The notes below the pieces were generated by a model, which was not told where the DNA came from, ran no database searches, and worked only from the letters and a program-made list of their open reading frames with translations. The position numbers and the translations under genes are program-made. From Thermococcus sp. (GTDB lineage Archaea > Methanobacteriota_B > Thermococci > Thermococcales > Thermococcaceae): a stretch of 61,593 bases of DNA. Positions 45,100 through 61,464 of the stretch are shown here, in pieces; the first letter of the stretch is position 1, and the number at the start of each line of letters is the position of its first letter. The stretch covers positions 1-61,593 of the forward strand of contig NZ_JALSLB010000027.1 in the NCBI RefSeq assembly GCF_026988555.1. The letters run 5' to 3'.

Positions 45100-46089
45100 A
45101 TGCTACCAGGGAAGGTTCCACCGGAGGTCCTGGAAAGACTGGTATTTACTAATCTGGGCATCAGCGATAAGAGGGTTCTAATGGGTTCTGGAAAAGGCAT
45201 AGACGCGGCCGCAATAGAGTTCGGGGACCGTGTTCTCGTCGCATCAACGGACCCCATAACAGGTGTTGGGGAAAATATCGGCTTCTACGCGGTTCACATA
45301 AACGCAAACGACGTTGCCACCTTCGGCGCGAGACCGCGGTGGTTTCTGGTCTCCATACTCCTTCCGGAAGCGGCAGATGAGTCGACCCTACGGGAGATTA
45401 TGGGGGAACTCCACGAGAACGCGGCTAATCTTGGTGTTTCAATAGTAGGAGGGCACACCGAGGTAACACCGGGTCTGAACAGGCCAGTGGTCGTGGGGAC
45501 GATGATGGGTGAGGTTGACCGGGAGAGACTTGTGACGTCAAACGGGGCCAGGCCTGGAGACGCTCTGATCGTAACAAAGTGGATCGGACTTGAGGGCACG
45601 TCGATAATAGCCCGTGAGCGGGCCGAGGAACTGGAACAAACCTTCGGAAGGGAGTTCGTCGAACGGGCAAAGGGGCTGATAGACATGATAAGTGTTGTTA
45701 AAGATGCCCTGGTGGCCGCTGGAATAGGTGTCAACGCGATGCACGATCCAACGGAAGGTGGAATCGCCAATGGACTCCACGAAATGGCCGATGCCGCGGA
45801 TCTGGGATTTAAGGTGTACGCGGAGAGGATTCCAGTTAGAGAGGAAACCCTGAAGATCTGCGGGCTGTACGGCTTGGACCCCCTGGCCCTCATAAGCTCC
45901 GGAACCCTCATGGTAGCGGCTCCTAGGGAGAGAGCCAGCCGGATAGCCTCCGCCCTCGAAAGGGAGGGAATCCATGCCACGGTCGTAGGAGAGTTCGTGG
46001 AGGACCCGGACGTCAGAGTGCTCGTCGAAAAGGACGGGGAAAAGGAGCTCCCCCAACCCAAAAGCGATGAGATATGGAAGGTCGTCTAA
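45100..46089 (+). CDS. AIR synthase-related (HypE/PurM-like) protein
   Basis: The product of about 330 residues has the two-domain PurM/HypE fold: GKGIDAAAIEFGDRVLVASTDPITG with the ATP-lid region, HINANDVATFGARPRWFLVSILLP, GHTEVTPGLNRPVV, and the C-terminal DPTEGGIANGLHEMADAA. It lacks the HypE C-terminal Cys tail (it ends KSDEIWKVV), so it is not a hydrogenase cyanide-ligand enzyme of the usual kind. It resembles the AIR synthase-related proteins common in Thermococcales, whose substrate is unknown. ATG 45100 was chosen over GTG 45085. Confidence 0.8.
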   Translation: MLPGKVPPEVLERLVFTNLGISDKRVLMGSGKGIDAAAIEFGDRVLVASTDPITGVGENIGFYAVHINANDVATFGARPRWFLVSILLPEAADESTLREIMGELHENAANLGVSIVGGHTEVTPGLNRPVVVGTMMGEVDRERLVTSNGARPGDALIVTKWIGLEGTSIIARERAEELEQTFGREFVERAKGLIDMISVVKDALVAAGIGVNAMHDPTEGGIANGLHEMADAADLGFKVYAERIPVREETLKICGLYGLDPLALISSGTLMVAAPRERASRIASALEREGIHATVVGEFVEDPDVRVLVEKDGEKELPQPKSDEIWKVV

Positions 46090-46955
46090 AGCTCAACGGA
46101 GATCCTCAGTTTCTCCTCTTCTTCCAGCTTTTTCAGGATTTCAAATGCCTTGGCCGGAGGCAAATTCAGTGCCCTGAGGTGCTCGTAAGCCAGCCTTATC
46201 TCCGAACGTTCCGGCTCAGGAGCTCTGCGCTCCATGTACATCAGAACCGCCAGAAGAACTCCCCTGATGCTCGGCTCCTGGAGGGGCAGGAGCTTCCAGC
46301 CGTTTTCGTAAACGTACGCTGCCCTAGGGGTATCCGTCTCCGAGATCTCATCTATGGGGAGCAGGTTCGAGGAGCTGGCCGTCAGATAGCCAACGAGGGT
46401 CTCCTCAGAATAGCCCTCCTTCTTGAGGCTTGAGAAACTGAGCTCCAACGCCTTCAACAGGGAGGAGCGACGCTCGATTCCTGTGATTCCATCCTTAGAG
46501 AGGAAGGATAGCTTCAACACGGATCTCTCAAGCGGCTCAGCCTCCAGGTTAACCCTTAAAAGAACGCGATCGCTAAGGCGCGAACCCTCCTCGAAGGCCT
46601 TTATAGCTATCCAAACGGCTCCGTTTGTAAGGATTCCATACCTAACTCCAGCGTTAAAGCAGTACCTCCCAAGCTGGCGCAGGGGCCCCTCGTTCTTCAG
46701 TATGTTGACTCCCAGGTTCTTGGCCTCCACAAAGGCAAAGACCGATCCGTTCAGTATCAGTGCATAATCGGCCCTACCGTCCTCGGTCCGTTCCTCGGGT
46801 CGGACTTCCTCAGGATTGTTCCAGTCCCACCCAAGTGCCCGGAATATCTCACCGAGAAGGTGCTGTTTCACCGCCTCTTCGTTCTTTTCGTAGAGGTTTC
46901 TGTGTGCCCGCATCCTCCGGGACACCCTAAGGACCGCACTCCTAAGTCCGTCCAT
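46086..46955 (-). CDS. Nuclease-like protein with type I restriction HsdR N-terminal-type domain
   Basis: The 289-residue protein has an N-terminal PD-(D/E)XK-like domain: KQHLLGEIFRALGWDW, EERTEDGRADYALILNGSVFAFVEAKN with the D and ExK residues, and YGILTNGAVWIAIKA. This is the HSDR_N pattern found both in restriction subunits and in orphan proteins. The C-terminal half is helical with no helicase motor, so it cannot be a complete HsdR. It does not belong to the hsdM operon at 57569 and may be a lone nuclease or regulatory protein. ATG 46955 follows GGTGGT; it converges with the AIR-synthase-like gene, overlapping by 4 nt. Confidence 0.65.
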   Translation of the reverse strand: MDGLRSAVLRVSRRMRAHRNLYEKNEEAVKQHLLGEIFRALGWDWNNPEEVRPEERTEDGRADYALILNGSVFAFVEAKNLGVNILKNEGPLRQLGRYCFNAGVRYGILTNGAVWIAIKAFEEGSRLSDRVLLRVNLEAEPLERSVLKLSFLSKDGITGIERRSSLLKALELSFSSLKKEGYSEETLVGYLTASSSNLLPIDEISETDTPRAAYVYENGWKLLPLQEPSIRGVLLAVLMYMERRAPEPERSEIRLAYEHLRALNLPPAKAFEILKKLEEEEKLRISVEL

Positions 46956-47035
46956 GTGTACCACCGGTCCCTCTGGACTACACCCAACAACCTAAAAGCT
47001 TTTGTGGTTGAATCCGAAAACCCAAGGGGATTGAA

Positions 47036-57568: not shown

Positions 57569-59119
57569 ATGGAGAAGAAGCTCACTGATTTCCTAGATGC
57601 TCCACCAAAGAAGGATACCGGTTTAACCCGCGAGGAGCTTGAGCGGGCTCTTAAGAAGGCCGCGGATTTAATCAGGACGAGGGTCGATTATAAGTACATC
57701 CCCCTTCTGCTCTTCCTGAAGCGTCTGAGCGACGAGTGGGAGAAGGAGTTTGAGGAGTACGTTAGGAAGCTCACCAAGGAAGGCCTGGACAGAAAGACCG
57801 CCGAGGAGCTCGCCCTCAAAGACAGGGAATCATACACGATTAACTATCCGCCAGAATACCTCTGGAGGAAGCTCCGCGAGAAGGACATCGAGAGCCTTCC
57901 CCAGAACCTTTCGCAGGCCCTCAAGAAGCTCGCCGAGCTCAACCCCAACCTGAGGGGTGTCGTCGACCGCTTCGACTTTATGGAGTTCATGCTCCACAGG
58001 GACAACGCCGAGATACTCAGGCAGCTCTTCGAGCTCTTCAGCGGGCTTGACCTAAAGCACGCCTCGCCCGATGTTCTTGGCGATGCCTACGAGTGGATTC
58101 TAAGGTATTTCGCCCCGCAGAAAGCCAAGGAGGGTGAGGTTTATACCCCAAGAGAAGTCATCAGGCTCCTAGTTGAAATCCTCAAGCCGGAGCCGGGCGA
58201 AGAAGTCTACGACCCCGCGATGGGCTCCGGGGGAATGCTCATCGGGGCTTACCTTTACGTTAAGGAGCACCGCGGAGCGGATGAGGCTAAAAAGCTCTTC
58301 CTCTACGGCCAAGAGGTCAATCCAACCACCTACGCTTTAGCCGAGATGAACATGATACTCCACGGCATTAAGTCTCCAAAGCTCGCCACCGGCGATACAC
58401 TTCTGAGACCACAGTTTAAAGAGAGCGAAAGGCTCAAGTGCTTCAATGTGGTTATAGCCAACCCTCCGTGGAACCAGGACGGCTACGGTGAGGCGACCCT
58501 CAAAAAGGCCGAGTTTACCGAGCGCTTCAAGTACGGCTATCCGCCGAACAACTCCGCGGACTGGGCGTGGATCCAGCACATGCTCGCGAGCGCCAAATAT
58601 ACTGGAAGGGTCGGCATCGTCATAGACAACGGCGCGCTCTTCAGGGGCGGGGCCGAGAAGAAGATAAGGGCGAAGATACTCAAAGAGGATCTGCTTGAGG
58701 CGATAATTTTACTCCCCGAAAAGCTCTTCTACAACACCGGCGCTCCGGGTGCGGTAATGATATTCAACAGGAACAAGCCAGAGGACAGGAGGGGGAAAGT
58801 CCTCTTCATCAACGCCTCGCAGGAATACGAAAAGCATCCGGAGATAAGGAAGCTGAACAGACTCGGCGAGGAGCACATCAGAAAAATAGTAACTGCCTTC
58901 GAGAAGTTTGAAGATATCGAGGGCTTTGCGAGGGTCGTTGAGCTGGACGAGATAAAGGAGAACGACTACAACCTCAACGTCACCCTCTACGTCTTTTCGA
59001 TGGAGGAAGAGGAGGAGATAGACGTTAAGGCCGAGTGGAAGGAGCTGAAGAGGATTAACGAGGAGCTCGCGAGGGTTGACGAGAGGATTGAGGGGTATTT
59101 GAAGGAGCTGGGGTATTGA
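57569..59119 (+). CDS. hsdM: Type I restriction-modification DNA methyltransferase HsdM
   Basis: The 516-residue subunit methylates adenine in the target of the type I system. It has an N-terminal helical HsdM_N domain, the SAM-binding YDPAMGSGGMLIGAYLYV near residue 213, the catalytic motif IV NPPW near residue 298, and VIDNGALFRGGAEKKIR with LPEKLFYNTGAPGAVMIF. The TATA element AAATATAAG (about 57526) and GGTGTGA support the start. It is the first gene of an operon with a PIN-domain protein and hsdS. No hsdR is in the window; it may lie to the right or be missing. Confidence 0.96.
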   Translation: MEKKLTDFLDAPPKKDTGLTREELERALKKAADLIRTRVDYKYIPLLLFLKRLSDEWEKEFEEYVRKLTKEGLDRKTAEELALKDRESYTINYPPEYLWRKLREKDIESLPQNLSQALKKLAELNPNLRGVVDRFDFMEFMLHRDNAEILRQLFELFSGLDLKHASPDVLGDAYEWILRYFAPQKAKEGEVYTPREVIRLLVEILKPEPGEEVYDPAMGSGGMLIGAYLYVKEHRGADEAKKLFLYGQEVNPTTYALAEMNMILHGIKSPKLATGDTLLRPQFKESERLKCFNVVIANPPWNQDGYGEATLKKAEFTERFKYGYPPNNSADWAWIQHMLASAKYTGRVGIVIDNGALFRGGAEKKIRAKILKEDLLEAIILLPEKLFYNTGAPGAVMIFNRNKPEDRRGKVLFINASQEYEKHPEIRKLNRLGEEHIRKIVTAFEKFEDIEGFARVVELDEIKENDYNLNVTLYVFSMEEEEEIDVKAEWKELKRINEELARVDERIEGYLKELGY

Positions 59120-59129
59120 GGTGAATGAC

Positions 59130-60224
59130 ATGACTAATTCCCGCCCAATTCCAATAGTTGAGAGCATTTCTGTTCAAAACATCTACGAGGCTCCAGAATT
59201 GAAGCCAATATTTGACGAGTTCCTAGTAGAACTGCCTCCAAGCATGTTGGAGATTATCAAACAATTCGCAGAGCGCATTCTCATGGATATCACGGGGATT
59301 AAGGGCACGCTAGAACTTTCCATTGTTGTTGATGCAAATCAAGTAATATCCGAAGCAATTAACTACATCCGAGATGGTAGATTGCCCCTCATTATTGAAC
59401 TATCGAAAACGCCATTTGTTAAGCTATATGCTCCCCCATCAATCCGTGAGGAAACTTTGAAAGATGAGAGAAAACTAGAGAAGATCTCAAAGAAGAAGGG
59501 AATCCCAGTTGAAGCACTCAAGAGCGCCATTGAGGAAATTCTAGAGCACATCACCTTTAAAGTGCCAGAGGGTTATGAGGAATATAAAAAGGCTATGAAA
59601 TTAGTTGGTGAAAGGGATCCTGATGATGTAGACTACGTGTGGCTGTATTTTTCAATAAATGCAACCGCTATTGTTTCTTCCGATAAAGACATCACAGAAA
59701 CCACAATTAAAACATGGAAAAACATGGGGCCGTTAAAATACATTGAAGTTATCCTTAGGAGAGGCTCTCTTTCTTTTGTTGTCTTATCTCTGGGAGGGCG
59801 TGCCATTTTGGAGTTTCTGTTTAAGATAATCCTGGCCGTAATTGGAACAATCTTAGGAATTTTAAAAGTCATGTGGAGTTATACAAAACGCATTATTGCA
59901 TGGATTAGTGAGGGTATTCAAAATTTATCTGAACTACAAGCATTGGCTTTCTTCGCAACTCTCGGGGCCATTGTGTATTATTTTGGCAGAGAAATTAAAG
60001 AATGGGCAGAAACCTTAGTGAATAGAGTTATAGAATTCTTGAGGTCTGTAAAAGACTTTATCATTAGCCTCTTGAATATAATCTTGGACAGCCCTATAGT
60101 TAGGGCCTTAAGAACCTTAATGGAATACTCTGCGATTTTGATAGAACTTTACAAAGAGATTAACCTCAAGGACATTGAGGAAAATGTCATCAAAGTGGGT
60201 GGTCCCAATGAAAGCTCAGGCTAA
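59130..60224 (+). CDS. PIN-domain protein with hydrophobic C-terminus inside the RM operon
   Basis: ATG 59130 has a GAGGTGA site spaced 5 nt, and the gene starts 10 nt after hsdM. The 364-residue protein has a PIN nuclease domain at about residues 64-195: VVDANQVISEAI with Asp68, APPSIREET with Glu107-108, DPDDVDYVWLYFSINATAIVSSDKDI with Asp165-166 and Asp185, giving the usual acidic D-E-D-D set. The C-terminal part has hydrophobic segments of about 35 and 18 residues (FKIILAVIGTILGILKVMW and ALAFFATLGAIVYYF) and amphipathic helices. It is A+T richer than hsdM. PIN proteins cleave RNA; membrane insertion and coupling to restriction are inferences. Confidence 0.8.
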   Translation: MTNSRPIPIVESISVQNIYEAPELKPIFDEFLVELPPSMLEIIKQFAERILMDITGIKGTLELSIVVDANQVISEAINYIRDGRLPLIIELSKTPFVKLYAPPSIREETLKDERKLEKISKKKGIPVEALKSAIEEILEHITFKVPEGYEEYKKAMKLVGERDPDDVDYVWLYFSINATAIVSSDKDITETTIKTWKNMGPLKYIEVILRRGSLSFVVLSLGGRAILEFLFKIILAVIGTILGILKVMWSYTKRIIAWISEGIQNLSELQALAFFATLGAIVYYFGREIKEWAETLVNRVIEFLRSVKDFIISLLNIILDSPIVRALRTLMEYSAILIELYKEINLKDIEENVIKVGGPNESSG

Positions 60225-61464
60225 AACCAAGTTCAAGAAAACCCCAATCGGCGAGATTCCCGAGGATTGGGAAGTTGTCAAAATAAAAGAGGTTATCAAA
60301 GAAGCTAAACCCGGGTTTGCAAGTGGAAAACGTGATGAAAACGGGATAATTCAGCTTAGAATGAACAACATCACTACCGAAGGCAAGGTCACACTAAAGG
60401 AATACTTGAAAGTCCCAGTTCCTGACAATATTGATGATTATCTCCTTAAACCCGGCGATGTGCTGTTTAACAACACAAACAGTGTTGACTTAATAGGAAA
60501 GACTGCAATATTCCGAGGTGAATGCAGGTTTTGTACATATAGCAACCATATAACACGAATTAGAGTAGATTCAAATCAAGTTCTTCCAGAGTGGGTTATG
60601 TACTACTTCTTAGAACTTTGGCGTATCGGATACTTTAGACAGATTTGTGTTAGGTATGTTGGACAGGCCAGTGTTAAAAAGACCGACTTGTTGAATATAA
60701 AAATCCCCCTCCCACCCCTCCCCGAGCAGAAGAAAATAGCCGAGATTCTAAGGACAGTTGACGAGGCCATCGAGCGAACGGAGCGCCTGAAAAAGGGCCT
60801 CATGCAGAGGCTTTTAACGAAAGGCATCAAGCATGAGCGGTTCAAGAAGACCGAGCTGGGCGAGATTCCAGAGGAGTGGAGGGTTGTAAGAGCTGGTGAA
60901 ATTTGTCAAAGTATAGTTCCTGGTAGAAATAAACCAAAAAAATTCGATGGCGATATCCCTTGGATAACCCTAGCAGATATAGACGGCATGTATGTTGGGG
61001 CTTCAAAATCTGGCCTAAATGTGAGCAAAGAGGAAATTAAAAGGTGTGGGAATAAAATTATTCCTCCTAATAGCGTCATAATGAGTTGTGTAGGAAAGTT
61101 TGGTATTGTTGCAATAACTACAAGGGAAGTTGTATTAAACCAACAACTACACGCTTTTGTGTGCCCTAAAACATTAGATCCATATTTTCTTGCAGTTGCG
61201 TTAATGTCCCAAGCTAGATATATGGAATCAATAGCAACTAAAACGACCGTTCCATATCTAAATAAAGACAAGATTAATAGCATTCCGATACCTATTCCTC
61301 CCCTCTCCGAACAGAAACAAATAGCCAAAATCCTCTCCACCGTCGATAGAAAGCTCGAACTCCTCCGGCAGAGAAGGGAAAAGCTTGAGCGCGTTAAGCG
61401 CGGGCTGATGAAAGACCTGCTGACAGGAAGGGGGAGGGTGAAGTATTACAACCAAAAAGTATAA
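60208..61464 (+). CDS. hsdS: Type I restriction-modification specificity subunit HsdS
   Basis: The 418-residue subunit recognises the split DNA target. It shows the typical two-fold repeat: TRD1 (about residues 20-150), the central conserved region PLPPLPEQKKIAEILRTVDEAIERTERLKKGLMQRLL, TRD2 and the distal repeat IPIPPLSEQKQIAKILSTVDRKLELL. Each repeat begins with F.KT.LGEIPEEW or similar. The A+T-rich TRDs and conserved G+C-richer repeats are what recombination or exchange of specificity would leave. Its ATG at 60208 lies inside the PIN gene, overlapping it by 17 nt, with GGGTGG as ribosome site, so translation is coupled. Confidence 0.95.
   Translation: MKAQAKTKFKKTPIGEIPEDWEVVKIKEVIKEAKPGFASGKRDENGIIQLRMNNITTEGKVTLKEYLKVPVPDNIDDYLLKPGDVLFNNTNSVDLIGKTAIFRGECRFCTYSNHITRIRVDSNQVLPEWVMYYFLELWRIGYFRQICVRYVGQASVKKTDLLNIKIPLPPLPEQKKIAEILRTVDEAIERTERLKKGLMQRLLTKGIKHERFKKTELGEIPEEWRVVRAGEICQSIVPGRNKPKKFDGDIPWITLADIDGMYVGASKSGLNVSKEEIKRCGNKIIPPNSVIMSCVGKFGIVAITTREVVLNQQLHAFVCPKTLDPYFLAVALMSQARYMESIATKTTVPYLNKDKINSIPIPIPPLSEQKQIAKILSTVDRKLELLRQRREKLERVKRGLMKDLLTGRGRVKYYNQKV

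Follow-up and report, generated by a model that had tools for sequence, protein, structure and literature searches.

A 364-aa protein encoded between the methyltransferase (hsdM) and specificity (hsdS) subunit genes of a type I restriction-modification (RM) locus in Thermococcus sp. could be a membrane-associated PIN-domain RNase. It would be carried as an exchangeable passenger of the hsdM–hsdS junction and would act as a second-layer antiviral effector, for which the RM system is not an obligate inhibitor. This reading is given a probability of about 0.5. The gene, here called PIN-TM, is located near the end of a 61,593-nt stretch of DNA (the window), which is contig C27 (NZ_JALSLB010000027.1) of a 68-contig, 1.97-Mb archaeal assembly (G000 below). 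The case is built on sequence and a structure model and includes the PIN fold with its catalytic residues, the hydrophobic half, the position in the operon, linkage to type I loci, purifying selection, recombination and exchange of the slot content. PIN-TM is read as an embedded antiviral effector because of its membrane part, the lack of an antitoxin gene, and the PIN genes and Kiwa-type pair that otherwise occupy the same slot.

The protein encoded between hsdM and hsdS

The most plausible start of PIN-TM is ATG 59130, situated 10 nt past the hsdM stop codon and preceded by the Shine–Dalgarno-like motif GAGGTGA; the longest frame begins at GTG 59121 and encodes 367 aa. The first 17 nt of hsdS (ATG 60208) overlap the end of PIN-TM (60224). 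Since GAGGTGA lies over the hsdM stop codon and hsdS overlaps PIN-TM, the three genes very probably form a single translationally coupled operon. The G+C fraction of PIN-TM is 0.392, compared with 0.540 for hsdM, 0.422 for hsdS and 0.525 for the window. A preliminary description of this DNA had already reported a 364-residue PIN protein at this position, the 17-nt overlap and an A+T content above that of hsdM, and all three stand.

The PIN domain proposed there is supported by profile search, structure model and Foldseek alike. PIN-TM matches Pfam PIN_2 (PF10130) with 45.0 bits at a curated cut-off of 22.4 (E 1.6e-11), and no ATPase or HEPN domain was found in the Pfam scan. An AlphaFold2 model built from 28 sequences, which replaced a poor first model built from three (predicted local distance difference test, pLDDT, 48.5), reaches a pLDDT of about 80–97 across residues 61–190, the PIN region, and is weak at residues 221–250 (42–63). 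In the PDB, Foldseek ranks two archaeal PIN proteins first, PAE0151 and PAE2754 (probability 1.00, E only 0.003–0.02), and VapC15 follows with a lower probability of 0.85. A profile search of PDB sequences also retrieves PAE0151 (E 1.4e-6); a fold search of a viral fold library gave no matches.

The acidic quartet is intact and consists of D68, E108, D166 (with D163) and D185. Asp68 and Asp185 had been named correctly, and the other two residues, given as Glu107 and Asp165, were each one position off. Among the 28 aligned sequences, E108 and D166 are invariant, D163 and D185 are nearly invariant, and D68 is found in most, with N in some. The fold, together with the catalytic residues, suggests that PIN-TM functions as a PIN-domain endoribonuclease.

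The hydrophobic C-terminal half noticed earlier is represented above all by a segment at about residues 226–244 (mean hydropathy about 2.2–2.4), conserved across four homologues. Residues 269–289 fall under the hydropathy threshold of 1.6, and long amphipathic or weakly hydrophobic helices follow the first segment. Judging from hydropathy, this half may be membrane-associated.

No small antitoxin gene is present directly upstream of PIN-TM, where hsdM is located. Fusion of an antitoxin to the N-terminus was considered as well and rejected, since profile comparison of the first 64 residues with the small proteins encoded upstream of single-domain PIN_2 genes gave no match.

Relatives of PIN-TM and the hsdM–hsdS slot

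Just two further near-full-length PIN-TM genes (77% and 72%) were found in 101 genomes. A family-profile search of 115 genomes of the phylum gave matches in five, four of them near full length, adding a gene from another genus (G124, 55%). All four near-full-length genes, from two genera, are placed in the hsdM–hsdS slot or its remains. When 115 genomes of the class were scanned for PIN_2, about 110 matches came up; only these four lie in frames longer than 350 aa, and no other frame exceeds 208 aa. No copies were found in viral contigs and phage records; one scan of a genome collection gave no match, and a second returned the G030 locus alone.

In G026 the gene order is hsdM, a 619-aa gene, PIN-TM, hsdS, a 411-aa gene, an HSDR_N part, hsdR and ygjP. 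The G124 slot, located at a different chromosomal site, comprises hsdM, PIN-TM, a 117-aa membrane protein gene, a second PIN gene (223 aa) and hsdS, after which come a 280-aa gene, a small gene with a further PIN gene, hsdR and ygjP. G030 is a metagenome-assembled genome (MAG) of Thermococcus, a close relative of the same genus as the source. Its PIN-TM is intact but is flanked by the 49 terminal codons of hsdM, fragments of hsdS and a ygjP scrap; elsewhere in this fragmented assembly, neither a type I hsdM nor an hsdR turned up.

A fifth, distant copy resides on the large plasmid of Methanocaldococcus jannaschii (NC_001732; 31% over residues 23–245, E 5e-16). It is situated outside the hsd genes, about 1.5 kb downstream of an hsdR, in agreement with the type I linkage suspected earlier for the gene. 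Near an A8 run this copy (L135 7926-9030) breaks into frames of 256 and 109 aa, and the 109-aa frame has a weak match to the membrane half; the split could represent a frameshift, a sequencing error or a true division. The hsdM–hsdS slot of the same plasmid contains a relative of the 117-aa membrane protein.

PIN-TM also resembles a mobile cassette in its divergence, as had been supposed from its A+T richness. Between G000 and G026, synonymous divergence (dS) is 1.02 for PIN-TM and 0.54 for the flanking hsdM, i.e., about twice as high. The gene is a mosaic: the N-terminus of the G000 protein is like that of G030, its PIN domain is like that of G026, and the membrane half of G026 is like that of G030. 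The ratio of nonsynonymous to synonymous divergence (dN/dS), where dS could be estimated, is 0.12–0.16, a rough value because dS is high; it points to purifying selection and indicates function.

The content of the slot was compared in 13 loci with related hsdM genes (about 63–94% identity to that of the window; G030 was included by its remnant). PIN-TM occupies the slot in 4 of them. In G005 and G024 (contig C10) it is replaced by a PF01850 PIN gene of 204–208 aa with a small membrane protein gene, and in G034 by a truncated copy of this PIN gene whose first 23 residues are identical. G020 (contig C70) possesses a third PIN type, 42% to the 223-aa PIN of G124. A PIN gene or PIN remnant is thus present in 8/13 loci, with three PIN families overall. 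The remaining slots encode a 537-aa protein whose end is weakly HEPN-like (G013), membrane proteins (G022, G082) or uncharacterized proteins (G020 contig C9, G036).

In a paralogous type I clade (G021 and G024 contig C21), the same junction contains KwaA (E 6.5e-19) and a KwaB-like gene whose match is weak and below the cut-off (E 2e-4). This putative Kiwa-type anti-phage pair lies at L082 3016-4754 and L085 3207-5426. The junction lacks an insert in several other type I clades. By these sequence comparisons the hsdM–hsdS junction is an exchangeable slot for defense-type genes.

Some further features of these loci were observed. Three slot proteins of 552–619 aa (L052 3075-4781, L089 9275-10933, L016 8361-10220) include two that are clearly related (E 2e-12) and belong to different type I clades; the third has a C-terminal stretch alone in common with them. 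A family of small membrane proteins (111–156 aa; Table 1) is found repeatedly in the slot, either by itself or next to PIN or KwaA genes. Specificity of the 117-aa membrane protein for type I loci was considered and rejected, as relatives occur on haloarchaeal plasmids away from type I genes.

In several loci hsdR is preceded by nucleotidyltransferase-like genes, mostly accompanied by a small HEPN-partner-like gene (HEPN was assigned by eye, and Pfam gave no confirmation); the decayed G030 locus has also retained them. A YgjP-like metallopeptidase gene follows hsdR on the 3' side in nearly all loci (L016 17060-17722 and relatives); in an E. coli strain, an M48-type metallopeptidase comes after a type I island (PMC12255303). 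In G026, hsdR (L016 14110-17069) consists of two frames, one of 190 aa (HSDR_N) and one of 795 aa, which a frameshift may have separated. A 292-aa open reading frame at window positions 46086-46964 (minus strand) has an HSDR_N-like match (42.5 bits together with frame neighbors) and is by position unrelated to the type I locus.

Table 1. Features of the PIN-TM locus (window coordinates) and of related loci (coordinates within the named locus)
Feature	Coordinates	Strand	Basis or remark
3' end of upstream aor-like gene, 90 nt that also open contig C11	57402..57491	+	Sequence comparison within the assembly
hsdM, type I methyltransferase subunit, 516 aa	57569..59119	+	Pfam N6_Mtase E 1e-115, HsdM_N E 1e-15
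Shine–Dalgarno-like GAGGTGA, overlapping hsdM stop, 5 nt 5' of PIN-TM ATG	59118..59124	+	Sequence reading
PIN-TM gene, 364 aa	59130..60224	+	Open reading frame between hsdM and hsdS
PIN_2 domain, residues 61-192, with D68, E108, D166 (D163), D185	59310..59705	+	Pfam, model, Foldseek, alignments
Main hydrophobic, putative transmembrane segment, residues 226-244	59805..59861	+	Hydropathy 2.36; conserved in four homologues
Second, weaker hydrophobic segment, residues 269-289, then amphipathic helices	59934..59996	+	Sequence reading; helices in model
hsdS, specificity subunit, two target recognition domains	60208..61464	+	Pfam Methylase_S, two stretches, E 2.4e-55
129 nt from hsdS stop to contig end	61465..61593	.	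In G026, 411-aa gene and hsdR beyond the equivalent point
Small membrane protein family members	L048 10556-10909, L072 7913-8266, L085 3207-3677, L135 1645-1980		
Nucleotidyltransferase-like genes	L047 6414-7431, L052 6431-7337, L046 6340-6948, L017 8075-9098		

The missing hsdR and the role of PIN-TM

That no hsdR is visible in the window, as stated in the preliminary description, is true but uninformative, because the contig stops at 61593, 129 nt past hsdS. A search of the same assembly with the G026 hsdR gave no match. Each of the eight intact same-clade relatives searched has the gene, as does G124. The first 90 nt of contig C11 of the assembly (L065 1-560) are those that end the gene upstream of hsdM, and the contig then continues without RM genes into tRNA-Ser, rps10 and EF-1alpha; the complete genome of a relative, G001, has the same RM-less arrangement over the whole 700-nt query. 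Both forms of the aor/tRNA-Ser site, with and without RM genes, thus seem to be mixed in the assembly. Given this apparent mixture and a contig end so close to hsdS, the missing hsdR is most simply explained as an assembly gap and is probably due to the contig break. Its absence as a biological feature was rejected as unproven in view of the contig end, the hsdR genes of the eight relatives and G124, and the RM-less allele. The type I RM locus itself seems to be an optional occupant of the aor/tRNA-Ser site.

As an embedded antiviral effector, PIN-TM would be co-expressed with hsdM and hsdS. In the absence of an antitoxin gene, its N-terminal and membrane regions could hold it in a latent state. 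On infection it would cleave RNA, so that translation and virus production stop. The restriction locus would serve as a source of transcript and a vehicle for exchange and not as an obligate inhibitor. The RNase activity, membrane location, antiviral role, autoinhibition and trigger are the inferred parts of this scheme. PIN-TM is probably a swappable extra antiviral weapon rather than a part of the restriction enzyme. Precedents exist in bacteria: two PIN systems that lack a classical antitoxin confer phage protection by means of their catalytic residues (PMC13092281), and TgvAB, embedded in a Vibrio type I locus, acts independently of HsdR activity (PMC11411939).

Several points weigh against the effector role. 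Since only five PIN-TM members are known in all, the type I linkage is based on few events. PADLOC has no family for PIN-TM, and apart from KwaA, the PINs and the weakly HEPN-like protein, the slot products have no assigned function. The imprecision of dN/dS belongs here too. Decay of the G030 locus may be recent, in which case its intact frame says little, and G030 is a fragmented MAG.

Alternatively, a complex of HsdM and HsdS, possibly with HsdR, could bind and silence the PIN RNase and release it when a virus disables restriction, a principle established for PrrC (PMC3874165, PMC3506569, PMC3710099). The tight operon with its 17-nt overlap, the lack of an antitoxin gene belonging to PIN-TM and the type I linkage in every case found are consistent with such coupling. 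However, closely related HsdM and HsdR proteins are paired with unrelated slot proteins or with none intact, and the HsdS proteins of PIN-TM loci are no more alike than others: the G000 hsdS is 42% identical to that of G026 and 63% to that of G024. In addition, the M. jannaschii copy lies outside the hsd genes, and G030 possesses an intact PIN-TM with hsdM and hsdS remnants and no type I system found in that assembly. Because unrelated inserts are exchanged over a conserved RM backbone, and because of G030, the PrrC analogue held by HsdM/HsdS that the preliminary description put forward is disfavored and considered unlikely.

A further reading is that the archaeal hsdM–hsdS junction is a dedicated effector slot, in which HsdM/HsdS senses and the slot gene responds, PIN-TM being a membrane-tethered counterpart of PrrC with another fold. 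This seems rather doubtful. That the membrane PIN RNase, the other PIN with a small membrane protein, the HEPN-like protein and the Kiwa-type pair would all be executors in such a slot is proposed with similar reserve.

A VapC-like RNase could also stabilize the RM locus by harming cells that lose it, with no role in infection. Outside type I loci, the nearest relatives of PIN-TM are indeed single-domain PIN_2 genes, 23/26 of which have a small overlapping or abutting upstream open reading frame, antitoxin-like by size and position. PIN-TM, in contrast, has no adjacent antitoxin gene, and its N-terminus is not antitoxin-like by profile comparison. Moreover, RM-less alleles and relatives exist, and in G030 the PIN gene has outlived the RM genes, which is the opposite of what addiction predicts. 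A stabilizing toxin is somewhat less probable than PrrC-like coupling. Least probable is an RNA-processing enzyme or a neutral passenger without defense function: some PIN domains do process cellular RNA (PMC3710099) and the gene is rare (matches in 5/115 genomes), but purifying selection, confinement to type I loci, and the KwaA and other PIN genes of the same slot speak against it.

Comparison with known systems

Type I loci are known to carry toxin-like nucleases of the HEPN, Sir2, ParB and REase-fold types (PMC3506569; for HEPN also PMC3710099). Defense genes embedded in defense loci are a recognized theme, for which PMC11411939, PMC12255303 and PMC13092281 cite a 2024 preprint of Payne and colleagues. 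A limited literature search returned no account of a membrane PIN gene in an archaeal type I hsdM–hsdS slot.

VapC and PIN_2 toxins of VapBC-like modules share the PIN fold and the acidic quartet with PIN-TM. They differ in being single-domain proteins with a small upstream gene, whereas PIN-TM extends beyond the PIN domain by an additional N-terminal region and a hydrophobic C-terminal half. DS-3 and DS-5 likewise combine a PIN domain, required for phage defense, with the lack of a classical antitoxin. Unlike PIN-TM, they were tested in bacteria; no sequence kinship to PIN-TM is established, and the available part of the source (PMC13092281) reports no type I embedding.

TgvAB (PMC11411939) and DarTG2 (PMC12255303) resemble PIN-TM as defense genes embedded in a type I operon. 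They are, however, other genes and bacterial; DarTG2 is located between hsdS and hsdR, and TgvAB is compared in its paper with a gene at the hsdS–hsdR position, while the slot of PIN-TM is hsdM–hsdS. RloC of Geobacillus, found beside an hsdR relic (PMC2610378), is similar to the G030 gene as an RNase gene outlasting its type I neighbors. It differs in possessing a Rad50-like ATPase and HEPN and is rarely linked to RM.

A further parallel is PrrC of EcoprrI, a type IC locus (PMC3874165), in which an RNase-type gene is also placed inside a type I operon without a classical antitoxin. PrrC is an ABC-ATPase with HEPN held by the RM complex, whereas PIN-TM has a PIN fold, a hydrophobic half and no ATPase domain, and the genomic evidence speaks against an obligate RM inhibitor for it. 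The decayed G030 locus and the RM-less allele are natural tests of the dependence of the effector on the restriction system. Further archaeal defense genes could be read off at the exchangeable position beside the specificity gene. With PIN-TM, the pattern of RNases embedded in type I loci, known from bacteria for the HEPN type, would reach hyperthermophilic archaea, where the nuclease is another one and has a membrane part.

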